From Malania oleifera (Eukaryota; Streptophyta; Magnoliopsida; Santalales; Ximeniaceae): DNA of 64,000 bases. Location: NCBI RefSeq assembly GCF_029873635.1, contig NC_080418.1, forward strand, positions 15,642,888 to 15,706,887. The letters run 5' to 3'. Under the pieces are notes generated by a model that was not told the origin of the DNA, made no database searches, and worked only from the letters and a program-made list of their open reading frames with translations. Shown piece by piece: positions 15,798-58,461 of the stretch. Made by a program: the position numbers and the translations under genes. Within the stretch, counting starts at the first letter, position 1. Every line of letters starts with the position of its first letter.

Positions 15798-16850
15798 ATG
15801 GCCTAACAAGGCTTACAATTCTTATTTTGATGATAACAAATCACGATAAGTTTGATATGGTTTGTTTCAAGTGAAACTCTTTCAGGAAGAAGGCAAAGCT
15901 TAAATAAACTCCAAGCTCAAATGGATGATAAAGCTCATGATGAATGTCCTATACAAAAGGTTCAAGAAAGAAAGATGATCAAAAGCTCAAAGATGATATA
16001 TGATCATAGAAGAATAAGGACTTACTTGAAGATCAAAAGAATAGAGTTTTAAGGATGTCTGTATATAAGTACTTCATGTAAATTTCAATATAAATTGAAT
16101 TGAAGCTCTTATAAATCAAAAGAAACTTAGAAATGTATTTTTTTTTTAAAAACCCTAAAGTATGTTTTAAAATCAAAGTAAATAAGGTCTTAAAAGAAGA
16201 AAAGTTTTTTAAAGAATATAAAGTGAAGCTGAACAGCCAGGCGATTGCCTACATGTGGCAGGCGACTGCCCAATTTATAAAAAGAATTTTTAAAGAGGCG
16301 GTAGTGTCCCAGGCTACTGCTTGAGCACAACCAGGCGCCTGGGTGGTCAAGCAAGGCAACTGCCTGGGTTCCAGCAGGCTACTTCTAATATTCTGGATCG
16401 TTCAGCGACCTGGCAGGCGACTGCCACTCGAACAAATTTTTAAAATTCTCAATGGAAAGATTTTTTAAATGGATTTCTTGGGCACTACTCTTTTGAAAAA
16501 ACTTGAGGATTGCTCCAAGTAAACTTAGGGGGCAAGGAATTACTTTTAAACATCTATAAATACCCCCAAACTTCAAAGATTTCTACACCAAGAAATTTTC
16601 TAGCAATCAAAGTTATCTAAAAGCTCTCAAACTCTCTTGTGTTCATTCTACTTCAACTACTGAATTGCTGCTGATACAAATTCCAAAGTTGAGCCTTCAA
16701 AGTTTGAATCTTTCAATACTTGGAAGATATATTTGGTGATCTAAATTCAATTTGAGCTTCAATCTTTTTATATTGATTTACTTTGAAGTATATTTGTGCT
16801 GATCTTGTACTAATCAACTCTATTGTGAGAGTTAACAATCTAATGGATGT
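15798..16850 (+). mobile_element. Sirevirus LTR fragment, family S1
   Basis: TGGCCTAACAAGG...TTTTGATGATAACAAAT matches the start of the S1 LTR at 38203. A TATA box (TATAAATA) at 16555 and the following segment TTGTACTAATCAACTCTAT match S1 at 39362. The 3' part is missing: after about 16850 the sequence switches to a minus-strand Copia pol. The first bases (TATGGCC for TGTTGGCC) are mutated. Confidence 0.75.
16225..16430 (+). repeat. U3 word array, GGCAG-GCGA-CTGCC type
   Basis: Two perfect copies of the 14-base inverted repeat GGCAGGCGACTGCC at 16257-16270 and 16412-16425, plus five or more variants such as CCAGGCGCCTGG, CCAGGCTACTGC and AAGGCAACTGCC. The array ends about 125 bp upstream of the TATA box. 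Confidence 0.9.
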
Positions 16851-16859
16851 ACTTTTAGA

Positions 16860-18440
16860 AACCAGAGAAAAAGTATCAAAAACATCAAGATCTTTTTTTT
16901 TGGCCTTTGGCTACAAGGCGGGACTTATACTTGTCTATTTATCCATCCGGTTTGAGTTTCTTTTTAAGGACCCATTTGCACCCAATGGTTTTACATCCAT
17001 CTCATCATTCACGACCTTTTTCTAGAAAAACCGCATCAAGCGATGTCAATGCATCTTGTAAGGTAATTTGATTTTCCTCTAAAATATTGACATACTAATC
17101 AGGACCAAAGTCCTTCTCGACTCTAGCTCTTTTACTCCTTCTCAGATCAATCTCAAATTTTTTTTTATTCTTTAAGTTAGGAGTAGATGAGCTAGACTCT
17201 GAAACAACATTATTACTATCACTTTTACTCCCACTATCTCTAGTTTTAAACGGAAACTTCTCTTCATGAAAGATTGCATCGCATGATTCAAAGATAACAT
17301 TATTCTCAATGTCTAAAAATCTATAGGTTGTTCTATGAATAGAATATCCAAGAAAAACAGAAGTAGAAGCTTTAGCACCTAATTTCGGTCTTTTTGGATC
17401 TATGAGCCTTACAAAAGCTAAACAACCCCAAACTCTGAGATAAGTTAAAATAGGCTTATGCCCTTTCCAAAGTTCAAACGGAGTAACTTTGGTCTGTTTG
17501 TGTGGCACTCTATTCAATACATGACAAGCAGTTAAAACAGCTTCTCCCCAAAGATTAGGAGGTGCACTTGATTCTATTAGCATGACATTAGTCAAACCTA
17601 TTAAAGTTCTATTCTCTCTCTTAGCTATGTCATTTGATTCAAGTGAATAAGGTGGAGTAACTTCATGTATAATTCCCAAGGATTCTACAAATGAGTTGAA
17701 TTCAAAAGATTCATACTCACGACCTCTATCACTTCTAATTCTCTTAATTTTCCTACCGAACTGATTTTCAATTTCGAGGAGGAAATTCTTAAATTTTACA
17801 AAAGTGTCACTTTTATTTTTCAACAAATACACTTGCGCAAACTTTGAAAAGTCATCAATAAAAGTGATAAAATATCTATTTCCTCCACGAGTTAAAATTT
17901 CTTCAAATTCACACAAATCTGTGTGAATTAAGTCTAATAATTCGGTATTTCTTTCAATGCTTTTATGAAGCCCTCTGGTTATTTTAGCTTTACTACATGA
18001 TTCACATTTATCAAAATCCTTATCTACATTTGGAATTAATCCCAAACCACTCATGATTCCTGCATATCTACTATTAATATGACATAAACGAGCATGCCAA
18101 AAACTTAACGAAGAGAGCATATAAACAGAACTTGAAGATGCTATATTGTTATTCTCAATACTGAATTTAAACATCCCATCACAAGCATAACCTTTTCCCA
18201 CAAATATTCTATTTTTAGTAATTACATATTGGTCAGATTCCATGGTTTGTTTAAACCCAGCCTTGTTAAGGAGAAAATCTGACACCAAATTCTTTCTCAT
18301 GGAAGGAGTAAAGTATACATCTTTTAATACTAATACTCTTCCAGAAGTAAACTTCAATTCAACCTAACCACTTCCAAGTACTTGAGTGGTATGTGAATCA
18401 CTAAGTATAATAGTTTTGGGTTCCTTAAAAGGAGTATTGT
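16860..18440 (-). pseudogene. Copia pol fragment: GAG-pre-integrase, integrase, start of RT
   Basis: 18357-17095 is a long open stretch. It begins with the protease end (KFTSGRVLVLKDV), then the GAG-pre-integrase zinc module (SFWHARLCHIN...CESCSKAK). The integrase core has LIHTDLCEF and IRSDRGREYESF carrying the first two catalytic Asp. The third motif reads SNDIAKRENRTL, where the usual AER has become AKR (codon 17620-17622), so the catalytic Glu is Lys. The C-terminal integrase part (LWGEAVLTACHVLNRVP, VWGCLAFVRLIDPKRPKLG) is complete. 17095-16860 holds the first RT segment (QDALTSLDAVF, then a PLGA-like piece) with stops. Tork-like by appearance, not firmly placed. Confidence 0.85.
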
Positions 18441-18957
18441 AGAGACCCAGCTTTTTGTAAATGGGTGGATGCCCAAAGGAGATCGGTGTATCAATTGTGA
18501 CAAGAGGTAAAAATTCCTTTGGAGTGAATCCTTGGGCCCTTATCCATTGTTTTTCAACAATTTGTACTTCTAAATCTCCCGGCTTAACTCGAAGAATTTT
18601 TCCCAAAGATATGGGAGTAAGATGAATACTCTGCCCTAGGAGATTTGTTTCTATCCCATTGTCAAGTTTCTCCATATTAGCATAGAAAATCCGTACTACG
18701 TTTCGATAATACCCTTTTGCTTGATATGTGATAAATCGTTCCCATCCAATTTCCTTAAAAAGCTCTATGATTTCAGGAAAATCAAAATTGAAGAATTTAA
18801 CATTAAGTACTTTACCTAGAATCGATTCTGCTGAAGCTATTTGATTTCTATAGAAAGTTTTGGTGTGAGGAGTTACTAAGCACTTCTCTACTTCATCGTT
18901 GTTGATTCATGTGGAGGAAGAGGTACCCTTGTTAGCAACCAATTTGATTCGAGGCAT
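18440..18957 (-). pseudogene. Sirevirus accessory ORF2 (putative plant transposon protein domain)
   Basis: Starts at ATG 18957 (MPRIKLVANKGTSS) with an in-frame TGA at 18907-18909 and then a readable protein to about 18440. It is collinear with 50880-51456 of element D: both show a segment ending in VRIFYAN or VKIFYAN, then SIHLTPISLGKIL or SIPLTPESLAKIF, then an EFLP(L/F) segment. The pattern 'FYAN ... basic linker ... I-x-LTPxxLxKIL' resembles the family named putative plant transposon protein, seen in many plant genomes. It lies downstream of RT/RNase H of the same strand, where Sireviruses carry an env-like or accessory ORF. At about 18440 the frame fuses by chance to the protease end of the neighbouring Copia pol. 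Function unknown. Confidence 0.65.
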
Positions 18958-19139
18958 GTTTGTTTTGAAGAGTGAAATTGATAAACCCTAGAATTTTATG
19001 CGAAATGATGCAAAGGTTGGGTTTGAATCAGGATCTCAGACGGATTTGGAAGAGAAATCGGTTTGAAAAAGAGTAGGAATGGAAGATTGTGGAGTGAGAG
19101 GAGAAGGGGCAGGTGCCTGAGAGTAGTTAAAAGGACACA

Positions 19140-19282
19140 TAACAGGGTTTTAAACCTTTACCCGTCGCGAGGCAGTCGCCTCCTACGAGGAGGCAGGCGC
19201 CTGTCAACCAAGAAAAGTACCAAGTCAGTTGCATGACAATCGCTTGTCACCCAGGGGGCAGTCGCTTGCCAAGCAGATTTTC
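19140..19282 (-). repeat. Word array just upstream of ORF2 (GGCAG-GCGA-CTGCC type)
   Basis: Copies of the word found in the LTR at 16225-16430, here on the minus strand: 19257-19270 (one mismatch to GGCAGGCGACTGCC), 19171-19183, 19192-19205 and one near 19230. The array lies 180-320 bp before the ORF2 start. Confidence 0.85.
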
Positions 19283-19329
19283 TGTTTAAATTGCTTCTCG
19301 TATATGCATCATTCCTAATTCTCGTCTAA

Positions 19330-19681
19330 TGAATATGAACTGCTCCTCAGAGAGTGGTTTTGTGAATATGTCTGCTAATTGATTGTTTGTATTGACAAAT
19401 TCTAGTGTTATGTCCTCGTTTTGTACGTGATCTCTCAAGAAGTGATGTCTTATGTCAATATGTTTGTTCTTGAGTGAGATACCAGATTTTTTGAAATATT
19501 TATGGCACTTGTGTTGTCACACTTTATTGGAATAGATTGATATTGAATTTTGAAATCTATTAATTGTTGTTTTATATATAATGTTTGGGCACAACAACTC
19601 TCCGCTGCTATGTATTTTGCTTCAGCTGTGGATAATGCCACAAAATTTTATTTCTTTAAAGACCAGGAGACTAATGAGTGT
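19330..19681 (-). pseudogene. Sirevirus RNase H, C-terminal part
   Basis: Translates to SLVSWSLKK, then after a TAG, NFVALSTAEAKYIAAESCCAQ and DNTSAINISKNLVSHSR, the C-terminal half of Copia RNase H, which degrades RNA in the hybrid. It continues the frame of 22653-21562, interrupted by the solo LTR at 19682-21561. Several stops follow after SHSRTNILT. Confidence 0.9.
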
Positions 19682-21561
19682 TGTTGGCCTTACTATGTTT
19701 GATACTCCATTTTGATGCTAACAAACAAGTACGATTTAACATATTTTAGTTGAGTGTTGTGTTTTCTTAGGAATTCATATTGAAGGTACTCATATAGCAT
19801 GAATCAAAGTCTGAAGAACATAAAAGCATGATGATTAAAGAAGATCAACATGAGAGATTAAAGTTTAGATTATTCTGAGAGATCAAAGATTAGCAATAAA
19901 GAAAGTTCAAGAGCAAAGGAGAATTTTTGAGAACTTAGGACAAGTCTTTGTAAGTACTCTAAGTTTATTCAAGTATAAAGTTTTCATTTTGAAGCTCATT
20001 AGACAAAGAGACTAAGAGACCTTAAGATAATAAATTGGAACATGTTTTCAAAGTTAAAACAAATCTATATTCCAAGTAAAAATGAGAGAGAAATCAAAAA
20101 GTGACTAAGAAAGAAATTTATTCAATTGACAGACGACTGTGTGGTTATAGACAGATGACTGGCTAAATTAAAGGCTTAAAATTGAAACACAGGAGCCTGA
20201 CAGATGACTGTCAAGGTTCCCACAGACAACTGTCAGTGAAAAGTGAGAAGTTTGTGAAAGTTTCACCAGATGACTGTCCACCTTATATGTTACTAAAAGG
20301 CTCAAAATTTCACATGGACAGACGGCTGTCATCATATGGACAGACGACTGTCACCTTATATTCTGATGACAGACGACTGTCACTCAAGGGACAAACGACT
20401 GCCACCTTTCTGCCTATGATTCTTACCGTTATATTAAATGGACAGACGACTGTCAGGACTTCACAGTCGTCTGCCTCGCGGCAATTTTCTGTTTTCCAAT
20501 GGATATAATTTTTGAAATTCAAATATTTGGAAACTCAAATAAGTTTATTTTATGGAAACAAGTCTGAGTATCCTTTGGGGAACAAGCAAAGAGGTTTTAT
20601 ACATCTATAAATACCCCTAAAGACTCATTGAATTAATAACCAAGATCATTAAGAACTCACAATCTGCTGTCATACTCTCTCTCACTTTGAAATTCTGAAA
20701 GTGCTTCATATTGCTCTCATCCTTTCTCGAAATTAAGAGAAGTTCTTGCTGAATTTCACTATGCTTGATCATTGAAGTTGCTGATTCTTTCATTGAAAGA
20801 TACCCACGGTGATAAATTCCTAAGAGCTTCATTTTGAAATTCATATTCTAAAATTTACTGAAGTGCATTAGTGTTTTAAGCTTTTACTAATCAGATCTTT
20901 GAGGAGCAAGTTCTTGTACGTATTGTTTTTCTATCTTTGTAATAGGGCTTGTTGATGATTTGAGTAGTTGAATCGTTGGACCAAACAAGGGAAGATTGTT
21001 TGGAGAAGGCGGGCTCTAGCCTTACCTAAGGAGTGCTTGTAATTGGTTTTGTTCCAACTGATAAAGGAACGGTAGTAGTGAATCCTTTGGCGGTTTGGCC
21101 AAGGGCAAGGAGGTAGACTATTTTGAAACCGAACCTCGTAAAAATCCTTGTGTTCTTCTTTCTCTACTCTACTCTTTATTTTTCAAGGATATAATCAGTG
21201 TGGTTGTTTTAAATTTCATTTCTAAATGTTTGGTAGTTAAATAGACCGAAAGGTAATTTGTTTTGGATAAATCAGCATTGATTGCAGAAACCGAAAGGGA
21301 CTACGTTGGTTGATTATCCTTGACCTATTAATCTAAAAGTTTATTTAAAAACTGAACATTGAGAAGAAAAATAATTGTGATACAGGGCTTAAACTGAGTG
21401 CAGCAAATTTTCACATATATTGTTACTTAAATTGAGAGTTTGATCTTGTTGTGATTGATTGTGATTGTTTCTAAGATTTGCAACTTAAAAGAACTAATTC
21501 TGAAGGAAAAATTTTTTAAAACCAATTCACCCCCCCTCTTGGGAAGCTATTCCTAGTTTCA
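19682..21561 (+). mobile_element. Sirevirus solo LTR, family S1, inside RNase H
   Basis: Starts TGTTGGCCTTACTATG and ends CACCCCCCCTCTTGGG...TAGTTTCA. It splits the minus-strand RNase H between LRH and SLVSW. The flanks AGTGT and AATGT suggest a 5-bp target duplication with one change. It contains a word array (20128-20490), a TATA box TATAAATA at 20606 and no coding sequence. Confidence 0.9.
20128..20490 (+). repeat. U3 word array, GACAG-ACGA-CTGTC type
   Basis: Perfect 14-base inverted repeats GACAGACGACTGTC at 20339-20352, 20368-20381 and 20441-20454. Variants with paired stems are at 20199-20212 (loop ATGA) and 20317-20330 (loop ACGG), with six or more degenerate copies. It ends about 115 bp before the TATA box. 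Confidence 0.95.
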
Positions 21562-22664
21562 ATGTCTTAGAAAATGACAAGTTCCACTAGTGCTCTTTCT
21601 ATCTATTCTGCATCCAGCAAAATCTGCATCTAAATAGCTTATCATTTCAAACTCAGTTCCCTTTGAATACCATAAGCCTAGTTTGAGTGTGCCTAGTAGA
21701 CATCTAAGGATTCGTTTAACTGCTATTTGATGTGATTTCTTAGGAGCCGATTGGAACCTAGCACACATACATACACTAAACATGATATCTAGTTTACTTG
21801 TTGTTAAGTAAAGTAAGCTTCCTATCATGCCTCGGTAGTGCTTGGTATCTACTTGTTTCCCTTTTTCATCCTTGTCAAGACTAGTTGAGGTGCTTATGGG
21901 AGTTCTTATAGGTTTACTTTCTTCCATATCAAACTTCTTTAACATGTCTTTAATATACTTAGTTTGATTTATGAAAGTTCCATCTTTAGCTTGTTTGATT
22001 TGTAACCGCAGGAAGTAATTTAACTCTCCCATCATGCGCATCTCAAATTCTTTTTGCATGGACTTAGCAAGTTCATTACACAATTCTTCATGAGTTGCTC
22101 CAAAAATAATATCATCAACATAAATTTGTACTATAAGCATGTCTTTATTTTTGGTTTTTATAAATAGAGTGCTATCTATCTTTCTTCTTGAAAAATTGTT
22201 TTGAAGTAGGAACTTGCTTAATCTTTCATACCAAGCTCTAAGAGTTTGTTTCAAATCATACAGAGCTTTTGTTAACTTAAATACATGATTTGGAGTTTTT
22301 GAATTTTCAAAACCTGGAGGTTGTTTAACATACACTTCTTCATTTATATATCCATTTAAGAATGCACTTTTTACATCCATTTGGTATAATTTAAAATCCT
22401 TATGGGCTGTATAAGTTAGGAGCATCCTAATTGCTTCCATTCTAACTACGGGAGCAAAGGTTTCATCGTAATCAATACCTTCTTCTCGATTGTAACCTTG
22501 TGCTACTAACGTAGCTTTATTTCTTATAACTACCCAATTTTCATCCTTTTTATTTCTAAACACCCATTTAGTTCCTATGATTGATTTATCTTTGTGTTTA
22601 GGTATAAGTTCCCACACTTGACTTCTTTCAAATTGATTTAGTTCCTCCTGCATAGCTATAATTG
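21562..22664 (-). pseudogene. Sirevirus reverse transcriptase and start of RNase H
   Basis: 22653-21559 is open for 364 residues. It shows the Copia RT start MQEELNQFERSQVWELIP, IIGTKWVFRNKKDE, YDETFAPVVRMEAIRMLL, MDVKSAFLNGYINEEVYV, the intact catalytic IYVDD near 22115, then LDKDEKGKQVDTKHYRGMIG, YLTTSKLDIMFSV and the RNase H start YLDADFAGCRIDRKSTSG. RT copies the element RNA into DNA. The sequence is typical of the Sirevirus branch. Upstream it stops abruptly at 22664 against an integrase on the opposite strand; downstream it is broken by the solo LTR. No frameshift is visible within this piece. Confidence 0.95.
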
Positions 22665-23716
22665 ATTTACTTGGGTACTATTCCTATCAAACAAAGATGA
22701 AGCCTATGACATGCTAATCACCTTATGCAAAAAATTATAAAATGAAAAGGGTTATAATGTAACAAGCTTTAGAAGTGATCAAGGTAAGGAGTTTAAAAAC
22801 AAAGAGGTTGATAAATTCTGTAATGAACATGGAATAAATCATAATTTTTCAGCACCTAGGACTCCACAACAAAATGGAGTTGTGCAAAGAAAGAATAGAA
22901 CCCTATAAGAAATGTCAAGAACAATGATAAACGAAAATAACCTACCCAAATACTTTTGGGCAGAAGCTGTAAATACAACTTGTTTTATTGTTAATAGGGT
23001 GTCTATAAGATCAAGTATAGACAAAACACTGTATGAACTATGGAAAGGTAGAAAACCAAATATCTCCTACATTCATGTATTCAGATGCAAATGTTTTATC
23101 CTTAATACTAAAGATGATTTAGGAAAGTTTGATGCAAAATCTGATGAAGTTATCTTCTTAGGTTACTTTATAAATAGCAAAGCTTATAGGGTTTATAATA
23201 GAAGAACCCTTACCATTATTGAATCAATACACATAACGTTTGATGAATCAAATAATTATAAATATAAGATTGATAAAAAAGAAGACATGCCACAAGAAGA
23301 AGAAGATCTTGAAATAAAAGAAGAAAACAATAATGAAGATTCAAATGAAAACATCATAGAAAATCTAGATCTACCTAAAGAATGGAGATATGCTAAAAGT
23401 CACCTAAAAGACCAAATCCTTGGTGAACCATCAAAAGGGATAACCACTAGAACCTCATTAAAAAATATTTGTAACCATTATGCCTTTTTATCTCAAGATG
23501 AACCCAAGAACATTAAGGAAGCCTTAAAAAATGACTAAATATATTTCACTAAAGTTCTTTAACACTCACGAACTTCTGAAGAAAGGAGATGTTGACATTT
23601 GCAAAATTCGTTCAAGTGACAACTCAGTAAATCTATTCACAAAAGCATTGTCAATTTCAATTTTCAAAAAACATGTACATAATATTGGAATGCGACGACT
23701 TAAGGACATTTCTTAA
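22665..23716 (+). pseudogene. Copia integrase fragment joined to RNase H tail (RT deleted)
   Basis: The plus strand gives the second half of a Copia integrase: TWVLFLSNKDEAYD, SFRSDQGKEFKNKE with a catalytic Asp, then GVVQRKNRTL, where the catalytic Glu is Gln (22885-22887). It continues with LPKYFWAEAVNTTCFIVNRV, a KCFILNTKD segment, EVIFLGYF and an acidic linker to EPKNIKEALKND (stop 23536-23538). The next frame jumps straight to the end of RNase H: HELLKKGDVDI, NLFTKALSISIFKKHV and GMRRLKD. RT and most of RNase H are therefore deleted. In-frame stops at about 22729 and 22906. Confidence 0.85.
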
Positions 23717-23846
23717 TTGATTGTATTTTTAAGAAAAGTATGAATATTATACTCTTTTTCCTTCGTTAAGGTTTTATCCTATAGGGTTTTCCTTAACAAA
23801 GGTTTTAACGAGACATATTCATAGTATATAGTTATCCAAGGGGAGG

Positions 23847-24170
23847 TGTTGTAAAACGTGTATATTACACATATGGATGACTATCTTAAGAATAAGTTAT
23901 AACTTTTGATATGCCCACATAATGGTTCATTATGGAATTGACCTTTAGAATGTCAATATAATTTTTGTCTATATAAAGACATATTTTACAACCAAAATGG
24001 AGATTAAAAAAAAAATGATTAATAACATCTAATTTCTAAAAAATTAGACGGCTAATTTTTATAGTTTCAAATTTCTTTATTTTAATTTTTCTATAATTCT
24101 CCCTTTATTTCATTTACAATAAATTTTAGTTTTTTTTATATATAAAATTAGAATTAATTTGATTAATACT
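23847..24170 (+). repeat. Copia LTR fragment with preceding polypurine tract
   Basis: CCAAGGGGAGG (23836-23846) followed by TGTTGTAAAACGTG has the form of a Copia PPT and 3' LTR start. It is correctly placed after the RNase H tail. TATATAAAG at about 23972 may be the TATA box. The right end is unclear. Confidence 0.5.
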
Positions 24171-24172
24171 GG

Positions 24173-27245: not shown

Positions 27246-27280
27246 TGTAAAATAATATATATATATATATATATATAGCT
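27246..27280. repeat. (TA)n microsatellite
   Basis: About 13 TA units. Confidence 0.9.
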
Positions 27281-37459: not shown

Positions 37460-38689
37460 TAGGATAAATTAAGGAAAATTAAAAAAAAATGCTTTTAAGC
37501 CAATTTTGTTTGTTTGTTCCTCCTAAAATAAATTTCGTGTTGAAAAATCACAAAAAAATAAAAAATGCACAAAAATCCACAAAAATCATAAAAATGTCAA
37601 AAAATCACAAAAATTTAGAAATTTCAGGAGAAAAATCTAAAAAATGTTTTTCCCTTGATCTTTATTGTTTTTCTTAATTGAATTTGTGTCATTTCAATTA
37701 AAAATCAAAAATCACAAATAACATTTTGAAATTAAAATTGCTTTCATAAAATCCATGAAAATTCAGAAAAAAAAAATCATAGGAGTAAAAAATATTTTGA
37801 GTTGGAAAACTCATTTTTACAAATTTCTTAATCCCAAATGAATTCCAAAAACCTCCTGGAATATTACTTTTCACTTATAAAATTCTATAAAAATTTAAAA
37901 ATTCACGGAAACATATTTTCCTGGTCACTTTCTCAATTTTCCTTCACGATGATTGCAACAAAGGGGCATGGACTCTTCGGAGTATTGGATTGCCCCAGTT
38001 CTGAGGGAATACCTACATACTATCTACGTTGTACATTTTTCTTTTATTTTTGAAAGGAAGTAATTTTCTAAGGCTTATTAAGTTTATTTTGGGATAATTT
38101 TTGATTAATTTGGTATCGTTCGTAAGAACGGGCGCATAGGGGGTGCTAATACCTTCCCCTTGCATAATTGTACTCTCAAGCCCAATTTTGGTGACGCAGA
38201 CCTGTTGGCCTAACTAGGCTTTTCAAACTTGTTTTGATGATAACAAATGAAGATGTTTTAACATGTGTTGTTAAGTGACTTTGTTTCAGGATAACATAAC
38301 TCTACACTTATGTTTGTCCTAAAAGCAAGCTGGAAAACAAGTCAAGTGAAAGCTTCTCCGAGTAGTTGAGCATCAAAAGACTAAAGCTTGAAGATAATGA
38401 GAGCATGGATATTAAAGAGAATTCGATGAAAAGCTCAAAGTATCTTAAAGCTTGAAGAGGAAAAGAAGACCAAAGCATGAAGACTTAAGTGTTTAAGAAT
38501 GACAAATGACTTAGAAGTCTTTTTGTAAGTGTTTTATTTAAATATCTTTTGAAATATTGTTGAAGCTCTTTAGGGGAAATACATGGACTTAGAGACCTAT
38601 TTTAAAACCCTGAAAAATGTTTTATGAAAGACCAAAATAAAATATCAAAATTAAATTTGAAAACCAAAAATGAAAAAAAAAAAAAAAAA

Positions 38690-38965
38690 GGACTTGTCAG
38701 CCAACTAACCAGAAATACTCTGGGTTTAGTCAGACGACTGACAGATAAACAATAGAAAAATTAACTATCCAGCCGAATGACTCAATAAACTGAAACCACC
38801 CAACCGACTGACAGTGCCCAACCGACTGACCCATTTTGAACTATGTCACGCCAGCTGACTGACTATTTCCTGATTTTAATTTATAGAAGACAGAAGGGTG
38901 TCAGTCGCCTATCTAGCCGACTGACCCTGTGGAAATACACTACTCATTCGCCTAGTCAGCCAACT
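38690..38965 (+). repeat. U3 word array, GTCAG-CCGA-CTGAC type
   Basis: About nine words. GTCAGACGACTGAC at 38729-38742 is a perfect stem. Others: CCAACCGACTGACAG, CCAACCGACTGACCC, CTAGCCGACTGACCC, GTCAGCCAACTAAC. It ends about 130 bp before the TATA box. Confidence 0.9.
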
Positions 38966-39894
38966 AACTCCACGGGTTTTTATTTTTTAAACTCCAACGG
39001 AAAAATTTCAAATTTTGGTTTTTCAAATATGAACGTTATAAAAACTTCATGGACACTCCAAGTCACTTGTGGAACATGGAAACTCATCCTAAATTGCCTA
39101 TAAATAATCCTTTAATCCCAAGAATTCAAAGATACAAGCAATCACACAGCATACTTGCATCAAATCTTTCAATCTCTCTCAAAGTTTCATATTGCTTATA
39201 CTCTTGTTGAAGGGAAATCATCTGAATTGCTGAAACACCAACCTAAGGTTCTCATACTGAGCTTTCTCAAATCACAAAGGAACCCTTGGTGAATTCTACA
39301 CTTGAGCTTCAATTCTATTTCTTATTCGTATTTAAATTATTGAAGTACCTAGAGCTGAAATTGTACTAATCTACTCTATTTTGAGAATGCTATTGTATGC
39401 AGAGATTACTTCATATATTTTGTAGTTCTTGGGTGATTCGAGGTGTTTGTATCGTTGGCTAAGTGAGGGGATATCGCTTAGAAAGGTGCTGCTCTAGCCT
39501 AATTGAAGGAGAGACCAAACGAGGGTATATCGTTTGGAGAGGCGGGCTCTAGCCTACTGAAGGAGTGTGTAAATGGTGTTGTTTCTCCTGGAAAAGGAAC
39601 TGGTTTTAGTGAATCCTTTGGTGTTTTTCCAAACGCAAGGACATAAGCTAGGTATAAGTCGAACCTCGCAAAAATCCCAATCTCACTCTCTCTTTCCCTT
39701 ACTCTTTATTTTCAGCACATATAAATTGCGTGGATGATTTAATTTTTAATTATATATACTACGTATACTTGGAAATCAAGTAAACTTAAAGTCTAATTTT
39801 GATTTGGGTTGTGGAAACCAAAAGGGAGTACGTTGGTTAAACCATACTTTGCAGAAACCATAAGGAGTACGTTACTTGGTTAACACCCAAAGAT

Positions 39895-45437: not shown

Positions 45438-45490
<53 letters not shown>

Positions 45491-46996: not shown

Positions 46997-49038
46997 TGTT
47001 AGCTTTGGTGTATTCCCAAGAGGGGGGGTGAATTGGGTATTTAAAAAATTATCGCCTAGGCTAAACCAGATCAACAGTATTACTCAACCTAGGGTCTGTC
47101 TATGCAAAAATAAACTCAATCATTCACAATAAAACATACACATGCAGTAAATAAATTGCAAAAATGTAAAGAATACGTACGATATGTTATCAGGGTTTCG
47201 CTAACTGTGCCTACGTACCCACCTCTAGCTCGCAAGCCCGAGAATTCCACTAATGCTTACTTAATGGGTGGAGTGGCACCTAATACAACCAAGTCAATTA
47301 GCACAGGGCTGACCTCAACCTTTACAAATTCTTCTTACGGGGCGGAGGAGGCCTTAACAATCCTTAGGAACTAGATTACCGCCCCCTCAGGCCACGCTTG
47401 GAAATACAACAGTATTTTTCACAACATGACTAATACAGTGATTATGCTTCTAAAGTAAAGCAGATATATACCCCAATACGCACAGTATACTCAATCAATT
47501 ACACATCAACAATATAGGAAATGTAAGTTCGGTGATGTAATTTTGAGCAAGCAACACTCAACAAGGTATTATCACTAATATGCTCAAAAGTGTTCAAAAC
47601 AAGCTAAATCTTTGAAACACGTTAATATCAAATCTCAATGTTCAATCAAAGTTTCAAAGATGCCTAATCAAATATTCAAACTAACTCAAAAGATTTTCTT
47701 CAATGAAATAAGCACACGAGTAGTTTGAAAAATATTTTAGCTTGTAGAAAATATTTTGCACAACAAAATCAAAGCTATTGGACACTTGCAATAACAATGC
47801 AAATATCCTAAGCTTACTAGTTTATCCCAACACAAGATTTATTATATTCAAATTTGTGGGATAAACTTTGCTAACTCTCCAAAAATAAATCAAACAATCA
47901 ACCAAACAAATGGGAGTATTTGCACTATCTAATAAATACAAGGACAATCAATACTCTCACAATATCAAAATGTATCAAGGGAATGAATATTTGAGAGTAT
48001 TTTAGGAAAAATGAGATTTTGAGATAGAGGGGATTTTTGCTAATTATTTTGGCTAATCTCTTCTTAATTTTGCAAATAAGCCCCTATATATAGAGAATGG
48101 AAAAATTATAACCATTGGGGGACACAGGGCATTCTTAAATTTGTTAAAAAAGTTTAGCAAAATTAACCTTGTTTAATCAATTTAACCTCAGTAAAAATTT
48201 AATTAACCCGAGAAGGTTCAGGTGCTCGACTTGAGGTTCGGGTGCCTGAATAGACTCAGTCAAAAAAAGCATTTTTAAAGAGTTCGGTCACCCGAGTCTA
48301 AGTTTGGTTGCCTGAACAAAAGTCGAAAACATTTGCCACGCGGTTTAGTGCTTGAAACTAAGTTCGGTTAATCAAACTAACAAGTTCAGTCGCCCGAGAC
48401 CTTTTTGAACACGAAGGTTTGGGTGCCCGAGTTGGTGAAAAGCACCCTGACAGAGGTTCAGTTGCCCAAAGGCAATACATTCATTCTTGGTTCGGTAGCC
48501 CGACCCCAAGTCAAACTGCTGACTTTCTAGCAGTTCGGGCGCCCGTGGAGTTTTGAACTCCTAAGGTTCGGTCGCCTGACCTCTCACATATTTGCCTATT
48601 AAGTCCAATTTTTAATTCAATTAATTCCTCTGATAATATATGTGATATAGGGACTTTTTGTGCATTTGTGTTAGGACCTAAGGTCTTTTCAAGTATGCCC
48701 AAAAACCTGGCGTTGGTCGACCTTCGGTCAACCAAAGGGTGCCCTAAGGTCATTTGATCCCTATGGTCAGTCTATGGCATTGCTAAGCTTACAAACCTAC
48801 ATGCATGACATGCAGAGATTATTACAGATCATATCCCTAGTTACTATTATAGACCCATGTTACATTAATTGACTTTACAATATGAAATAGAATCTTCGGG
48901 GTCTTTAGGCTTCACTTCAGGTTGTCGCATGTCATTATATAAGTATTTGCCAATAAGAACATGTACATAAACTTGGCAACCATTAAATACCTAAGTATTT
49001 GTCATAATCAAAATAGGGTATGACCCATGGGGTCAACA
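46997..49038 (-). mobile_element. Sirevirus solo LTR, family S2-like, inside gag of D
   Basis: Minus strand TGTTGACCCCATGGGTC to ACCAAAGCTAACA, with the conserved CACCCCCCCTCTTGGG block (47016-47033). Perfect 5-bp target duplication GAAAA (46992-46996 and 49039-49043). TATA-like CTATATATAGG on the minus strand near 48082-48092. Confidence 0.95.
48215..48585 (-). repeat. U3 word array, TTCGG-NNGC-CTGAA type
   Basis: About ten words on the plus strand such as GTTCGGGTGCCTGAA, TTCGGTCACCCGAG, GTTTGGTTGCCTGAAC, GTTCGGGCGCCCGTGG and GTTCGGTCGCCTGACC. On the minus (element) strand many centre on GCGA or GTGA between CGG and CCG. It lies upstream of the TATA box of this minus-oriented LTR. Confidence 0.85.
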
Positions 49039-50509: not shown

Positions 50510-50745
50510 GAAAGACTACATAGTTAGCCAACTGACTACAGGCCCAGCTGACTGAATGAACATAGAAATAAAGAGCAGAATTGCAGTCAGCCGCCTGACT
50601 CAAGACCTAGCGGACTGACTGAGCTGTGGTCTCTAAAACAAAGAGCAATCAACCGACTGACCCTGTAATCAGCCTACTAACTGACGAAAAAACCCTAACT
50701 TTTTTTATAAAAACACGACTCATTCGAGTTGTCAGCCAACTAACC
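50510..50745 (+). repeat. Word array just upstream of ORF2 of D (GTCAG-CCGA-CTGAC type)
   Basis: Seven words: GTTAGCCAACTGAC, CCAGCTGACTGAA, GTCAGCCGCCTGAC (50586-50599, perfect stem), CTAGCGGACTGACT, CAACCGACTGACCC, ATCAGCCTACTAAC and GTCAGCCAACTAACC. This is the word of the LTR of the same element (38690-38965). It ends about 135 bp before the ORF2 start. Confidence 0.9.
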
Positions 50746-51456
50746 TAGGGTTTCTACTCTTCCTTGCCTTCGTCCTCTTCCTTTCCTCATCTCCTTCTCC
50801 TCTAAAAATCACCAAATCCCATCTTCCATTTCCAAAATCCATTACTACCACCTTTATTTTTCCATTGAGAAACTTCAAAATGTTGAGGATCAAACCAGTA
50901 GGAAGTAAGAAACCTTCCACCTCATTTCAACACACTGAAGATCTAGTCATTGAGCAATGGCTTGTAGGTCCACATGCCAAAACTTTCTATCACAATCATC
51001 TAAGCATGATGGAACCACTTCTAGGTAAAATTCTTGACACTTCCTTTTTCACATATAATTTCCCACATATTATTTCGTTATTCGAAGCCCTAGGATGGAA
51101 AAATTTTGTACTCTATCAAGCTAAGGGACACTTCCCGAACCTTGTCAAAATTTTCTACGCCAATCTTGTTAGAGAGGAACACAACACGGGCTTTCAACCA
51201 ACGTAATGGGAAAATCTATCCCTCTCACTCCCGAATCCCTTGCCAAAATTTTTAAAATTCCAAATGGCAATTTTGAATGTCCTACTTTTGACACATCTTG
51301 GATTCTCGAACAAGACTTCACTCTAGAAGAATTTCTTCCTTTTATATTAGATCATGAGCCCGTTTCTTTTGAAAATCCTTCACTATATAAGCATTTCAAT
51401 CTTCAGGCTCAAATTCTGAAAAATATAATTACATATAATATCCTCCCTCAAGCCGG

Positions 51457-52557
51457 ATGTGATGCCCCGATTTTTGTACCAATTTTTTTAATAATAATAA
51501 ATAAATATTCACTTGTCCTCAATAACATTCATAAATCACCCACGTCAACAACCCTATTACCATTCATATGACCCAACCCGCATTGGGTATTGAGTAAAAA
51601 GTCATTTTATTATTATAACCTAACAGCGGAAGATAATACATACTTAACAACCAGAATACAATACCCAAAGTATCAACATACATACAAATATATACACTAC
51701 CATCCCATACTCAAAAACAACTCAACTCTAGGAGAATTACACCCTCCCCTAGTCCAGAAATTCACCCTGTGTGTCAGGGTCCCAGCTCCCTATGGTCACG
51801 GAGTTCTATCACCTGGCCTATCCTTATTCTTTGGAAAATTTAGATAATTTGGGTGAGACACATCTCAGTGAGAATGAATAAATTATTTACAGTGTGTGGC
51901 CATATGAGTTCATTTATAATACACTTTACTTTTCAAATCATCATTTCATCTGAGAAAATACAATGATATACACATTCTCATAATCATATATATATATATA
52001 TATATATACAACACAAGCTTTTATAAGCTTTAAAACCATTTCTCAAATTCAATGATTTCCAACATATATTTACCGCGAAGTTCCTGAGAATAGGGAAGAA
52101 TACTCGCCCATATAAGTAGCTTCCCTCTGCCCTAACACGTTACGCAGCCAAGTATGGCCACATCTGATACCTATCAAGGTACTCAGCTTACTCAGTAAGC
52201 CCTTAGGCAACCAAAGTGGGGTTCAGGCTCCTGAAGTGGCAAGTTCAGGCCCCTGAGGTCTCAGTTCAGGTGACTGAAGTGCCTCGGCCAGGTTCTGTGT
52301 TTCCCATTAATTCTTCAGGCTACCGAACTTAATCTTCAGGCAACCGAAGAAATTCTTCAGGCTACTAAGGTGGAGTTCAGGCTACCGAAGTCCCCTTTTT
52401 TTTATTTTCTTTTTCTAATTTTAAAAAATGCTTTGCTCTTTTTCTTAGGCCTTTTAGAAAACATATTTTCCATGATTTCAAAAACATTTCTAAGTCCATG
52501 AAGGTTCCCTAATGATATACAAGAAATGCATGAATCCTAAAGAAATTCTAATTTACA
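51457..52557 (-). mobile_element. Gypsy solo LTR in ORF2 of D
   Basis: Target duplication GCCGG at 51452-51456 and 52558-52562. Plus-strand start (A)TGTGATGCCCCGATTTTTG, end CTAATTTACA. Internal segment GGTGAGACACATCTCAGTGAG matches the LTRs of elements A and G, so the orientation is minus. Contains (TA)n at 51986-52008. Confidence 0.85.
52185..52395 (-). repeat. Word array in Gypsy solo LTR, TTCAG...CTGAA type
   Basis: Eight words. TTCAGGTGACTGAA at 52265-52278 is a perfect 5-bp stem with loop GTGA. Others: CTTCAGGCAACCGAAG, TTCAGGCTACCGAA (twice), TTCAGGCTCCTGAA, TTCAGGCCCCTGAG. It lies in the U3 part given the minus orientation. Confidence 0.9.
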
Positions 52558-52584
52558 GCCGGCATGCTGCCGAATTTTCTATAG

Positions 52585-53080
52585 ACATTTGCCTAAATAA
52601 TTGAAACATTACTTGTGTGTGCCAAATGTATATATATACATGTGAAGTAATTGCTTCATCATTTGCACACATTTAGGAGGAGCATCTGAAAATAAATGTC
52701 TATTTTATTTTGCTCACAAAATATGTTTGGATTAGATCTGCTATTAAATCAAGTGTGGCTTATGCTTAAATGGAATGTTTTAATCATAAATTTGAAATAT
52801 GCTCTTGTTGCCACAGTTACTTGATTTGCCATATGATCTTGCATGTGAGTCTTAAATTCTTTTTGGGATCATTATGGTTATGATTTTTCTGGTTATAATT
52901 TAGTATGTGCATAATTGACAACCCAGAAAAATGTTGCTTGATTGTCTTAAAATTAAAGTTCTCTTTTTCATCAAGCAACTCCCCCAGTACCTTTTGCACA
53001 TATCAAAGGGGAATATATATATTTATTATTATATACATATGTATATCTATATCTATATACTACATATATATATATATATG

Positions 53081-53112
<32 letters not shown>

Positions 53113-53915
53113 TATTTATGAAAGCAAGAACTGAACTCATATAGAATATATTGTATGTCTTGCTAGTGTGCTTACATGCCTTCATGACTTGTGCTTTCTC
53201 TTTATTAAAATTTTATGTCACGAAATCTCTTAAGGGTGTTGCATTACATAACTGGTTCATTGATAATATGTGAAAATGCATGTGAACTAGTTAGACTATA
53301 TTTATGCTCAAACCTTCTTTTTGGTATCATATGTCGTGTGTCTTTAACTCAAATCTTCCACGGGTCTTATGATATGTTTCAACTTCAAATGGTTTGTGTA
53401 TATTTCTGGTCTAATCATGTTTGATATGTCTTTTGAATCTCGTAATAACCAGTTATATCGTTTGTGTGCTTTATTGTTAAGGTTATCTTTGTCAGTTTTT
53501 GTGCATAAGTATGACTATTATATTATTGAATGATTGAAAGATTATACCTCTAATCTATGCGTTCACCATATTGAACTGTTTGAGTAGTCGTGGATAAATT
53601 GTTAGGAAATATAAACTCAAACATGTTACATATTATACAGGATTTATTTTTGGGAAGTCCAATTTACAAACGGCATTCTGCCGAAATTTTTCTAAATCTT
53701 TCCAAACTTTCTCTTGTATAACTATACTATTTACCCATGGCCTAGGATTTTATTTCAAATGGCCCTTTTTGCTGTTGCCAAAAGGGGGAGATGGAAGGAG
53801 GCAAAAATAATGGGTTTGTTTAAATACATTAGATGCATATTGTGAGGGGGAGCCTTCTTAGGCTTAACCCTATATTTTTGCTTGTCATATTTGTCATCAT
53901 CAAAAAGGGGGAGAT
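52585..53915 (+). other. Sirevirus 3' internal non-coding region with multiple polypurine tracts
   Basis: No coding sequence. CGGCATGCTGCCGAA (52561-52574) and CGGCATTCTGCCGAA (about 53670) are two copies of a hairpin-like motif. Polypurine tracts CCAAAAGGGGGAGATGG (about 53779), TGAGGGGGAG (about 53841) and TCAAAAAGGGGGAGAT (53900-53915); the last touches the LTR. Several PPT-like tracts before the 3' LTR are a known Sirevirus trait. (TA)n-rich tract at 53017-53115. Confidence 0.7.
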
Positions 53916-56236
53916 TTTTGACCTCATTGGTCACGCCCGGTTTTGATTATGACAAATACTCATTGTATCTAATGAGTGTTTGAGGTTTTGTACAGGAATT
54001 AAGACTGTTAAGATCAAGATGTGCACAAAGCAAGCAAAGCCTGAAGACCAATTTATAATTCAACATTGTAATATATTTAATTGGTCTGTAATAGTAAGTA
54101 GGTATTTGGTTTGTAATAAGCTCACACACATCACATGTATGATTTACTACGTAAGCTCAAACAAACCATGAATGAGAAATGACCTTAGAAAGACCTTAGG
54201 TTGTACCCTTTAGTCGACTGACACCAAACTTTTTCGGTGTCTTCAAATTAGACCCCAAGTGACCCTAAGAGACACATTTACACATATGTTTGTTAGGCAC
54301 TTGAATATGGCTTGTATGTTTCAAAACGGGACTGAAATACACACATGGTGCACTTTCGGTCGACTATCCAAGCTAGTTCAAAAAGCCCTGGTCGACCAAA
54401 ACCTCCCTGGGTCAAAAGTTTGACCATCTGATCGACCGAACCAGGTAGTTCAAAAAGCCCTGGTCGACCGAAACCTCCCTGGGTCAAAAGTTTGACCACC
54501 TGGTCGATCGAACTAGGTTGTTCAAAGAGACCTGGTCGACCAAAACCCTCCTTGGTCAACATTTGACCATCTGGTCGACCGAGAACTTTTGTTCTCCAAC
54601 TACCTAGTCGACCGAAGGGTCCGCGAGAGAATTTCCAGCGGTCTGGTCGACCAAACCAGCCAGTTCAAAATGGCCTAGTCGACCAAACCTCAGAAAATTG
54701 AGAAATCGCCATCTCCTGGTCGACCGAGCCTTTAGTTCAAGACTCCCCTGGTCGACCGAACCATATTAAACTTGGTCAACCAAAACATTTCTGGTCAACC
54801 GGACCTCTCGGATTGCCCTAATTTTTACCGCAGTTAATATTTTTTTAAACAGGGTTAAAATGCTTTAAATGTCATTAAACTTCCCTAAGAATACCCAATA
54901 TGTCCCCAACGGTCATATTTTCTCCTATGCCTATATATATAAGATCATTTGAGAAAATTAGCATGGATTAGCCACTTTGATTAAGGGAACATTCTCTGAA
55001 AATCCAAAAGCCTATACTACTCATTTTCTTACTCAAATCACTCATACTTGCCTTCTATTATTACCTACATCATTTGTAAGTTGATTGAGTGTTTTTCTTA
55101 AATAGGTTTGCTCTCCTTGTGCTACTTGTTTGACACGATTTTCTTGAGAGCCAAACTTAAGGATTCTTAGGGGGGTTTTTGCTAATAAGCCTATCCTAAG
55201 AAGACTTTGTTTGATCTTCTAAGCTTGCACCTTTATTGCAAGATCTTGAGAAGATTGTTTTTGTTTTTGGTTGCAAAAACTTTTCAAACACTTCCAAATA
55301 TCTATTGCGCTTTTATCTTGTAAAATATTTGAGGAGATATTTGTTTGTGTGATAGTGGTCTTTGTTGCAATACTCTTTCACTCATATATTACTTGCTAAA
55401 ATACAAAGATTACACATCTTTTGCAAACCAAGCATATACATCATTTGATACTTACATGCTTGAGACACCCTACTGATTAAAATACTTAAGACTTGACATC
55501 TTTGTGTGAACTTATTTGTTAAATATTTTGTGATACAAAGATTGCTTGTTTGTCACTCTCACGTATGCATTACACATATAGAAAATACTTTTGAGAGTTG
55601 AACCATTTAGACCACATTGAGCTTACATATTAAATCATATTGTGGTGTATGTTATTGCGCGCATTTGGGTACATATCTGCTTTACATGAAAGCACAATCA
55701 CTGTACCATTTGATTGTAATACACATCTGTTGTATTTCCAGGCACGGGCCTAAAGAGGGAGACTAGCCCTGGAATAGTCCCGGATTGGCTTAGACCCGGT
55801 TAGGAAAGCTAGGTGCGTCGTCTTGTCAAGGCGTATAGGTTGAGGTCAGCCCCGCTAATTGACCTGGTTAAGGTTAAGGTCAGCCCTGTGTTAATTTGAC
55901 CTGGTTATAAACGGTGCCGCTCCAGCCTTAAGTGAGCTATTAGCTAAATCCTATGGCTTGCGAGCTAGAGGCGGGGACGTAGGCACAGTTGGTCGAACCC
56001 CAATAACAAATCGTGTGTTTGTTTACATTTCTACAGTTTATACTTACACACATGTATGTTATGAGTGAATGATGTGTATGACTTAATTTCCACATTATAC
56101 TTATCTACGCATTTGAAAATTGTATAAACTGACCCTAGGTTGTGTATTTACTGTCGTTGGATAAATTAACCTAGGTGAAAAAGTTTTAAATTCCATTTCA
56201 CCCCCCCCCCCTCTTGGGAATACACTAATTCTAACA
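53916..56236 (+). repeat. Sirevirus LTR, family S2, following the PPT
   Basis: TTTTGACCTCATTGGTCACG (start decayed from TGTTGACC) to CTAACA. Full-length match to the solo LTR 8125-10277. TATA box CTATATATATAAG at about 54931-54943. Conserved CACCCCC...CTCTTGGG block at 56199-56218. It stands where the 3' LTR of D should be, but belongs to another family than the left LTR. Confidence 0.85.
54205..54810 (+). repeat. U3 word array, GGTCGACCGAA type
   Basis: About 15 words GGTCGACCGAA or decayed GGTCAACCAAA. One larger unit (word, ACCTCCCTGGGTCAAAAG, TTTGACC) is repeated about three times between 54390 and 54580, period near 75 bp. The array ends about 120 bp before the TATA box. Confidence 0.9.
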
Positions 56237-58461
56237 AAAGTGCTCACAAGGATCAAATGAAGCTTAAAAGGGGGAAAGCATGGATTTAAAGATGATATAT
56301 TAAACCTTGAAGAATATGAGGACATGAATGAGTTGTTGAAAGCCAAGGAATATTAAAGTCAAAAGAGCCAAAGAAAGGCAAAGTGGGAAAGCTCAAATAA
56401 TATGGAAGCTTGAAGAAAAGATGGACTCAATTCAAGGACAAAGCCTGAAGACTCAAGAACCTAGAATGTTAATGTTTTAGAAGTCTCATGTAAGTGCTTT
56501 AATGTTTAAAGTATCGTTTGAAATATTTTTAAGCTCTTAGGTTAACTTCTTGGACCTAGATACCTTTTAAAATACTTGAAAAATATTTTTATAAGGTCAA
56601 AAATTATTTTAAAAGGGTTAGAATCATTTTTGGAATGAAAAGCACCAAAAAGAGTTTTTCAAAATGCTGTCAGTTTTTATACAGCTGTATTGAGGTGAAT
56701 TTTTTTCTATGAAGATCTCATTATTTTAAAATGTGTTCAACATGAAAGTTGTATTATTTTCTTTTAGCTTTCTTTTTACACCAAGAAAACCTAATTTGGA
56801 GTTATATAGAAAAAGTTATGGTCAAAACACTGAAATGGGGTCACTGCTGTCAAACATTTGAACACTGTTCACGGGAGGGACTTCAGCTGTCTGAACAGCA
56901 CACAGAACCACTTCAAACATCTAAAATTGACACCTCAAACGTCTGAAGATTTTTTGGACAAAAATACAGCAGGCAGTAGCTGTTCAGATGACTGAACTCG
57001 GCACTTCAAACATCTAAACTTGACACCTCAGACGTCTGAACCCTACCTTAGACATCTGACCCTGTGTCTAGTTCATTTTTTAAGGAGTTTTAGAAACTTC
57101 AGATGACTGAACTCGAATCTTCAGACATCTGAACATTGTTCAACGAGAAAAATTTTTAAATTCTAATATTTTAAAATATAGCCGTTTGAGCTCCAAACTT
57201 TCTAAAAATTTGGGAAACTCTCTAAAGAAACTTTTGCAACATGGAAACAAGTTTGAAAGCCTATAAATAAATGGTTTTGTAAATCAAAATACATCCATGA
57301 ATTGAAAAATCTGTTTTGAGAAGCTGAAAGCAATCTTGTTCTCCCAAAGTTCTCTTGCTCACTCATTATAAAAAAATTTTTCTGAGATATTCTGAAGTGC
57401 TAATCCTTCCTCCTCTGAATTCCTACTACTTAATCCTCATCTAAGAAGGATATTGGTGAATTCTACACTTGAGCTTACATTGAAGTATATAGTGCTGAAA
57501 TTGTACTAACTTGCTCTTTGAAAGAGTATATTTGTACGTAAATCTTATCTTGTGTTTCTTGTACTTCTTTGATGTTCCAAGGATTGTTTGGATCGTTGGC
57601 TAAGCAAGGGGATATTGCTTAGAGAGGCGGGCTCTAGCCTAAAGGAGTGACCAAACAAGGGGACATCGTTTGGAGAGGCGAGCTCTAGCCTAATGAAGGA
57701 GTGTTTAAGCGTGGGGTATCGCTTGTAAAGGTTTTGTTCCACCCGTCAATGGAACAAGTTTTGTGAATCCTTTGGTGGTTTGCTAAAGGCAAGGACGTAG
57801 GCTGTGTTGAAGCCAAACCTCGTAAAAATCTTCGTCTCACTCTCTCTTTCCCTATTCTTTATTTTCAGTGCATATTTAAATTGCGTGGATGGTTTAAATT
57901 TGAAAATCATATAAACTACGTATATTTGGAAATCAAACAAACTTAAGGTTTAATTTTGATTTGGGTTGCGGAAACCGAAAGGGAGTACGTTGGTTACACC
58001 ATATCTTGCGGAAACCATATGGGAGTACGTTACTTAGTTAACATCCCAAAGATAAATTTACCAAGAGTTTATTTTAGTTCTAAATATTTGGAAAGAGTGA
58101 TTTATTCATCTATACAGGGCTTTACATCAGCAAGCATAAAATTCTCATTCACTATAGAGCTTGATTCAAATTTGGCTAATATAAACAAACAACCATCTTG
58201 AGTTTTTATTTTACATAAGTGTTGTGTATTGGCTTATTTGTTTACTTTCTAATTATAGTTGATTGGTTTGGTTGAATGATTGGATGTTTGTATGGTTAAA
58301 GATTAAATAAAGAAACTAAGTTCTTGAGTGCTTAACAAATTAAACAAATAAGTCACGAATTGGTTAAAAGAAATAAATAAGTTTAAGAATTCTAAAAGGA
58401 ATTAAAAGAAATTTTTAAAAGCCAATTCACCCCCCCTCTTAAGAAGCTATTCCTAATTTCA
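56237..58461 (+). repeat. Sirevirus LTR fragment, family S1
   Basis: Matches the S1 LTR at 38203 from its middle to its end, including TATA box TATAAATA (57262), GGAAACCGAAAGGGAGTACG and the final CACCCCCCCTCTTAAG...TAATTTCA. The first few hundred bases of the LTR are missing at the junction with the S2 LTR. Confidence 0.85.
56835..57140 (+). repeat. U3 word array, TTCAG-ATGA-CTGAA type
   Basis: Perfect 14-base inverted repeats at 56983-56996 and 57098-57111 (TTCAGATGACTGAA) and 57120-57133 (TTCAGACATCTGAA), plus about eight variants such as CTCAGACGTCTGAA and TTCAAACATCTAAA. It ends about 120 bp before the TATA box. Confidence 0.95.

Follow-up and report, generated by a model that had tools for sequence, protein, structure and literature searches.

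Short palindromic boxes, known as RM boxes, were described in 2010 in the long terminal repeats (LTRs) of Sirevirus retrotransposons (PMC2829016). According to the passages of that paper drawn on here, each element has eight or more of these boxes, clustered upstream of the TATA box in the upper half of its LTR, and 12 of 13 Sirevirus RMs (Table 3) combine a fixed CGG-CCG core with symmetric outer bases that differ by element, Tnd-1 providing the published RM without this core. Further copies stand before the ENV gene, and linker and LTR share one consensus (Table 3). The role of the boxes is left open in these passages. In this study we analyse arrays of 14-bp palindromic words in four Sirevirus LTRs within one 64,000-nt stretch of the Malania oleifera genome (1.494 Gb, 510 contigs), hereafter the window, together with arrays elsewhere in that genome, the scope being one genome and related families. 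The words are spaced by whole turns of the helix, and we consider it probable that the arrays are promoter-proximal operators, that is, helically phased binding sites at which a dimeric protein would attach to one side of the DNA.

Two other systems bear comparison. In maize B73, 21% of the genome consists of Sireviruses (cited in PMC10760457), and palindrome clusters lie in the LTR cis-region of maize Opie, Ji and Giepum as they do here; unlike the present analysis, the maize work, as cited in PMC5311732 and PMC10760457, stresses hairpins, small RNAs and rapid evolution, with the motif CACCGGACNNNGTCCGGTG. The VANDAL transposons of Arabidopsis carry VANC motif arrays that resemble ours in being short, noncoding and element-specific with co-evolving copies, and that are read by a protein made by the element (passages of PMC5735166). 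Their motif YAGTATTAY is an imperfect palindrome, unlike our words, and the terms 'helical' and 'spacing' are absent from the main text of PMC5735166.

Judged by sequence, the four reported arrays are a CAG-CTG version of the RM boxes. Each holds a dyad-symmetric word at high copy number within one LTR, clustered upstream of the LTR TATA box, and extra pre-ENV copies carry the word of the LTR in all three elements that have such copies. The core differs, being CAG-CTG in the four arrays and CGG-CCG in 12 of the 13 published RMs (PMC2829016), as if both CpG had been lost by deamination; arrays with a CGG-CCG core lie in the same window (8573, 54355). The Usier RM GTCGGACGTCCGAC has the same geometry as GTCAGACGACTGAC, and the Vitis RM CGGTCGACCG is the core of the CGGTCGACCG-type arrays found here (both PMC2829016). 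The boxes, their symmetry, their element-specific outer bases and their pre-ENV copies are thus known, and the claim of the sequence-only reading, an earlier reading of the window, that element specificity and covariation were undescribed does not hold, since symmetric, element-specific outer bases were published in 2010 (PMC2829016). The CAG-CTG cores and the two spacing rules given below were not found in the passages of PMC2829016, PMC6911290, PMC3520747 and PMC10398659; a check of PMC2829016 passages for the terms helical, spacing, phase, distance and period found no statement on box phasing, and no report of phased palindromes in Sirevirus LTRs was found among the matches listed, the subscription literature lying mostly outside them.

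Results

The four arrays and their TATA boxes lie at these positions of the window.

16236..16425, plus strand: array 1, GGCAG-GCGA-CTGCC words; gaps of 21, 51, 22 and 82 bp; TATAAAT 129 bp past the last word
16554..16562, plus strand: TATA box CTATAAATA of array 1
20128..20475, plus strand: array 2, GACAG-ACGA-CTGTC words; gaps of 22, 49, 22, 44, 52, 22, 29, 22, 51 and 21 bp; TATAAAT at 130 bp
20605..20613, plus strand: TATA box of array 2
38696..38968, plus strand: array 3, GTCAG-NCGA-CTGAC words, the left arm decayed in many; gaps of 39, 31, 18, 33 and 50 bp; mean cosine 0.24
39098..39106, plus strand: TATA box of array 3
56882..57133, plus strand: array 4, TTCAG-ATGA-CTGAA words; gaps of 52, 49, 44, 71 and 22 bp; TATAAAT 128 bp past the last strict word
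57261..57269, plus strand: TATA box of array 4

These palindrome arrays are real. CAG-N4-CTG occurs 5, 11, 2 and 5 times in them, compared with 0.08-0.15 times in first-order Markov sequence simulated at the same composition. All eight perfect words listed in the sequence-only reading are present (16257, 16412, 20339, 20368, 20441, 38729, 56983 and 57098), and its placing of the arrays upstream of the TATA box is correct, as CTATAAATA follows each of them (16554, 20605, 39098 and 57261). Its estimate of 7-12 copies per LTR is roughly right, the counts being 7, 12, 10 and 6 words at up to two mismatches to CAGNCGACTG. Genome-wide, CAGNCGACTG has 60,320 matches (30,085 forward, 30,235 reverse), against 7,715 (3,851 forward, 3,864 reverse) for a control consisting of the core pattern read backwards, a tally in which CAGTCGACTG, being self-complementary, scores once on each strand.

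The main sample comprised 39 loci at the first listed core places on contig C1, chosen by the exact CAG core, 17 loci at CAGTCGACTG places, one blind 10-kb stretch (L048) and the window; loci L001-L008, which overlap later loci, were not counted. An array was defined by at least four words with the core CRGNCGNCYG at up to one mismatch (strict words; looser counts allow up to two mismatches to CAGNCGACTG) and by gaps of up to 130 bp, and words less than 14 bp from a better-scoring word were discarded. This gave 48 arrays with 303 words, which fall by flank similarity into 13, 17 or 21 families at three clustering thresholds. Orientation was assigned to 29 of the arrays by BLAST against the window LTRs, and 19 are unoriented. 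A hold-out of 16 blind 8-kb stretches from eight contigs, put through the same pipeline, yielded 7 arrays in 5 stretches, three of the arrays in L081.

The spacing of the words follows the helix. Adjacent gaps cluster at 21-22, 31-34, 42-44, 50-52 and 70-74 bp, and at a period of 10.5 bp the 255 adjacent gaps of the 48 arrays have a mean cosine of 0.563, against a jitter null of 0.019 (standard deviation 0.045, maximum 0.186 in 20,000). The cosine is positive in every one of the 48 arrays, and its family mean is positive without exception at each of the three thresholds (13, 17 and 21 families). As for the period, the mean cosine peaks at 10.4 and the vector length at 10.2. When one array per family and gaps above 25 bp alone are used, the value is 0.43-0.45 against a null of -0.08, reached by none of 20,000. 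The hold-out gives the same picture, with 0.418 over 38 gaps in 7 arrays against -0.077 (standard deviation 0.113; 0 of 20,000), 6 of the 7 arrays being positive. Nine other words were put through this pipeline as controls. Three unrelated palindromic words gave -0.007, -0.006 and 0.050 (192, 459 and 486 gaps), the last about two standard deviations over its null; two words with fewer gaps (23 and 39) had values of -0.240 and -0.201, and two formed no arrays at all. GRCNGCNGYC and CGRNCGNYCG gave 0.604 and 0.318, and because 49 of 92 and 86 of 130 of their respective matches overlap the studied words, they are not clean controls.

A second rule concerns the distance from the last word to the promoter. 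TATAAAT is found within 20-420 bp downstream of 22 of the 29 oriented arrays, and in 16 of these 22 it begins 127-131 bp past the last strict word. With two mismatches allowed throughout, the number becomes 17 of 22, the arrays at 38729 and in L014 moving to 130 bp and that at 56882 to 71 bp; in array 3, the box stands 130 bp past a two-mismatch word at 38955 and 185 bp past the last strict word. Among the 16 arrays the gapped identity of the interval is as low as 0.48 (median 0.64; shuffled partners average 0.55), 105 of the 120 interval pairs need at least one gap, and ungapped identity goes down to 0.26 (median 0.375). Such low identity, with gaps in most pairs at the same length, reveals that in this LTR group the length of the interval is kept while its sequence drifts, the indels cancelling one another. 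The group is that of the four reported arrays, and the rule is not general beyond it. It also differs from the published RM boxes, for which passages of PMC2829016 give averages of about 45 bp from an RM to the end of a CpG island and 37 bp from the island to the TATA box. Phasing and TATA distance, both missed by the sequence-only reading, are stronger features than the pairing of outer bases on which it had dwelt.

A set of LTRs with a TGTTGACTC start (L009, L018, L019, L025, L028:8800, L043 and L048) carries TTCAG words and has no TATAAAT at the usual distance; in L018 it stands at 95 bp.

The complementarity of the outer bases is a property of the word of each array: whole arrays differ, and single copies are not re-paired. 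Both outer positions are paired in 106 of the 303 words, compared with a mean of 56.3 when bases are shuffled across the whole set of arrays (none of 5000 shuffles attaining the observed number) and of 104.4 when they are shuffled within arrays (1927 of 5000 attaining it). Since the excess vanishes under within-array shuffling, complementarity belongs to the array's word and not to single copies. Among exact-core words 27 of 74 are paired against 10.6 expected, and the modal left and right outer dinucleotides match in 27 of 48 arrays. The inner pair 4/11, which is A-T in 200 words, G-C in 43 and mixed in 60, shows a weak within-array excess (243 against 235 expected; 87 of 3000 shuffles reach it). 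Thus the proposal that the outer two bases stay complementary survives as a tendency between arrays and fails as compensation from copy to copy, and the sequence-only reading is confirmed in part, for its words and positions. It had named two outcomes that would speak against it, and neither was found outright: between arrays the words do not form one cloud, while within arrays the outer bases do vary independently. Compensatory change at the level of copies, tried as the source of the complementary outer bases, is ruled out by the within-array shuffles.

When the arrays are read in the sense direction, the outer dinucleotide nearer to the promoter varies less than the one farther away: its modal share averages 0.75, compared with 0.59, and is the larger of the two in 17 of the 29 oriented arrays and the smaller in 6. 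These uneven halves suggest one strong and one weak half-site. The word classes track LTR lineages, with 7 changes against a minimum of 5 on a tree of 20 flanks. Between related copies the arms differ less than the spacers in the older GG family (0.102 against 0.301, the outer bases being nearly as variable as the spacers at 0.271), in the GT family (arms 0.160, spacers 0.214, outer bases 0.235) and in the TTG family (0.135, 0.169 and 0.052 in the same order), the word columns having been picked by a core match in at least one copy, a choice that favours the arms.

Sirevirus marks stand upstream of many arrays: the polypurine tract (PPT) AGGGGGAG, the repeat arm TTGTCATCA and an LTR start of the form TGTTG...TTTTGAT. 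In Sireviruses the PPT is joined to AT/TG and has a flanking inverted repeat; here PPT followed by AT, with TTGTCATCA just before, is seen upstream of arrays in L009, L010, L019, L029, L048 and at 54355 of the window, and L034 has both the inverted repeat and the LTR start. The arm letters TTGTCATCA come in part from the window rather than from published passages, and we take them to be those of the Sirevirus repeat. The letters of the PPT and of the primer-binding site TATCAGAGC are from PMC2829016. This binding site is present in the window on the minus strand only (32807, 32774 and 10563), none of the three being tied to the four LTRs, and the RVT_2 and rve frames of the window are nested. 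The LTR start with its right arm is kept in two of the four reported LTRs:

19682..19725, plus strand: LTR start with the right arm of the inverted repeat (TGTTGG...TTTTGATGCTAACAAA), by pattern match, the arm letters in part from the window
38203..38247, plus strand: LTR start with the right arm of the inverted repeat, by pattern match

A second array may stand within the element. Ten elements were inspected, namely eight upstream fetches together with L034 and L028, which were picked for having two arrays. A linker array precedes a frame matching PF20167 in 3 of the 10 and none is present in 6 of the 10. The PF20167 matches are 2.3e-15 in L028 (361 codons), 3.3e-12 in L067 and 1.2e-4 in L034, and in all three the word class of the linker is that of the element's own 3' LTR (L034, GA; L028, GG mixed with GA; L067/L013, TT). 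The array of L069, considered as a linker array, stands before RVT_2; it was ruled out and left uncounted. In the window, arrays of linker type and an env-like frame are as follows.

50523..50744, plus strand: linker-type array, GTCAG...CTGAC words, upstream of an env-like frame that matches PF20167 weakly (E 0.27); two-mismatch gaps of 20, 43, 20, 42, 20 and 63 bp
19108..19270, minus strand: linker-type array, GGCAG words, upstream of the env-like frame 18364-18906, from which its strand was set by hand
18364..18906, minus strand: env-like frame, partial match, at 5.5e-7 and thus under the curated cut-off, to PF20167 'putative plant transposon protein'

At 17095-18906 on the minus strand this PF20167 frame abuts a frame for pre-integrase and integrase, which is an unusual neighbour.

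Discussion

How could such arrays work? The 14-bp words (CRG-N-CG-N-CYG with element-specific outer bases) would be dimer sites in double-stranded DNA and, lying mostly 2, 3, 4, 5 or 7 helical turns apart, would bring the dimers to the same side of the helix. Within the LTR group to which the four reported arrays belong, the last such site would lie about 130 bp upstream of the TATA box, and its dyad about 13 turns upstream. Dimers bound cooperatively would then drive or repress the LTR promoter, and in env-carrying elements the second array of the same word probably acts likewise on the env-like gene. As lineages diverge, units may be gained and lost, and an altered word may thereby spread across its array, giving family-specific words; turnover of 22-bp units is seen, so that such a spread can come from it. 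From the words and their spacing we infer protein binding, a dimer, cooperativity and control of the promoter in one direction or the other, because a dimeric protein on one helix face would explain palindromy and phasing jointly, and in one group the TATA distance too. The sequence-only reading had proposed either a dimer site or a hairpin; the dimer half is favoured by the phasing and, in one group, by the TATA distance, while the hairpin half is disfavoured. Whole-turn spacing helps to separate a DNA-bound protein complex from RNA hairpins, and if it proves general, the phased arrays of one genome would form a large natural library for cooperative binding.

A number of results weigh against this reading. 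With the strict last word, 6 of the 22 oriented arrays miss the interval of 127-131 bp; TATAAAT is absent within 420 bp in 7 of the 29 (one linker array, L027 and five TGTTGACTC-start LTRs), none of the 19 unoriented arrays has it at 127-131 bp in either direction, and none of the 7 hold-out arrays at 60-260 bp in either direction. Moreover, relatedness to the window LTRs is built into the set of 29 oriented arrays, and the 13-21 families share descent and are not fully independent. Some gaps are off phase (16-18, 29 and 38-40 bp), one hold-out array (L076) is out of phase at -0.12, and three of the seven hold-out arrays come from one stretch. The pairing excess is absent from the hold-out, with 8 of 45 words paired against 11.0 expected, in a small set of 7 arrays in which the TTCGGTCGACC type prevails. 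The arms of the young GA family differ more than its spacers do (0.140 against 0.093), and 22-bp units of one word each are present or absent between GA-family copies. The spacers of 20-23-bp units are nearly unrelated, yet show a slight likeness (identity 0.313 against 0.266 for random sequence). At the arm pairs 3/12 and 4/11, G.U mispairs exceed A.C mispairs (25 against 11). Finally, none of the DRE, MYB, bZIP and ARF cores is known to fit all the words, and we know of no other factor that does.

The first alternative is that the arrays are functionless relics, in which units of 21-22 bp and 31-33 bp, duplicated and lost time after time, produced the likeness of the words within an array, the differences between families and the regular spacing. 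The 22-bp indels between GA-family copies, the uniformity of words within arrays, the slight similarity of the spacers and the unconserved arms of the GA family all agree with it, and the spacer likeness together with the gain and loss of 22-bp units indicates that duplication plays some part. However, the spacers are almost unrelated (0.313 against 0.266), and gaps of 3, 4, 5 and 7 turns are phased too, beyond multiples of 21, so that the test on gaps above 25 bp leans the other way. In one LTR group the last word holds its distance from the TATA box across cancelling indels, and the spacers of the GG family are three times as divergent as its arms. As a full account we consider relics unlikely; simple tandem duplication, taken as a candidate of its own, is disfavoured by the spacer identity and the phased long gaps.

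The second alternative, that the words are maintained as hairpins of RNA or of single strands, the transcribed U3 of the 3' LTR forming stem-loops which act in the RNA or feed hairpin-derived small RNAs, a proposal made for Sireviruses of maize, appears quite unlikely. The arrays fold better than their dinucleotide shuffles (mean z -3.37 over 29 arrays, against -0.35 for adjacent controls), but stable folding is expected of any palindrome. In maize Sireviruses the palindrome regions are hot spots of small RNAs, according to work cited in PMC5311732 and PMC10760457, and the G.U excess at the two arm pairs named above is what pairing in sense RNA would leave. Over all five arm pairs of the 174 sense-oriented words, however, A.C mispairs outnumber G.U mispairs by 72 to 35 and prevail at the pairs other than 3/12 and 4/11, by 30 to 1 at the pair 2/13, the reverse of what is expected of sense-RNA pairing, a comparison that concerns sense and not antisense RNA. 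The outer pairs, moreover, lack copy-level compensation, and a 10.5-bp stem spacing has no evident role in single strands. The hairpin alternative is thus weakened.

Nucleosome positioning or DNA bending, with CG-centred words on one face setting the rotation of a nucleosome over U3, is very unlikely: the period suits rotational phasing as well as protein-protein contacts, and the last dyad lies about 137 bp from the TATA box, near one nucleosome length, but rotational phasing needs dinucleotide periodicity and would require no 10-14-bp palindrome whose arms are conserved and whose word is element-specific.

Within the operator reading, we speculate, with much doubt, that the arrays serve each Sirevirus family as operators of its own and that the dimeric reader is encoded by the element itself, most likely as the env-like PF20167 protein, whose gene is preceded by an array of the same word. 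Translated from its first ATG, the 361-codon frame of L028 gives a 351-residue env-like protein that had no homologue at E 0.001 in a protein search and whose best match among solved structures is at chance level (E 0.99). If the idea were true, word and protein would change together, like the VANC proteins and motifs of the VANDAL transposons, which are DNA transposons of the Mutator-like kind, and the long-unexplained plant 'env' would gain a role as a regulator or an anti-silencing factor.

Other features of the window

Three further arrays were found.

54355..54760, plus strand: CCTGGTCGACCGAA-type array (CGG/TGG-CCG core) that follows a PPT and its inverted repeat at 53890; gaps of 104, 111, 33, 31, 81 and 32 bp; mean cosine 0.37
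8573..8945, strand unset: CGGTCGACCG-type array; gaps of 32, 43, 33, 40, 34, 70, 51, 32 and 24 bp
52222..52389, minus strand: array of TTCAGGCTACCGAA and TTCAGGTGACTGAA words, oriented by a weak BLAST match (52 bits); gaps of 22, 21, 49, 21 and 41 bp

In the array at 8573 the spacings are mostly 32-34, 40-43 and 70 bp, which correspond to three, four and seven turns, whereas the CAG-CTG arrays prefer two turns. The array at 52222 is possibly a minus-strand LTR; its TTCAGG words adjoin a stretch at 51461-52420 that begins with TGTGATGCCCCGATTTTTG and that may represent the insertion of a different element next to a minus-strand Sirevirus LTR. At 48237-48580 an array of TTCGG...CCGA words, with gaps of 46, 102, 106, 43 and 33 bp, accompanies a minus-strand LTR start (TGTTGACCCC).

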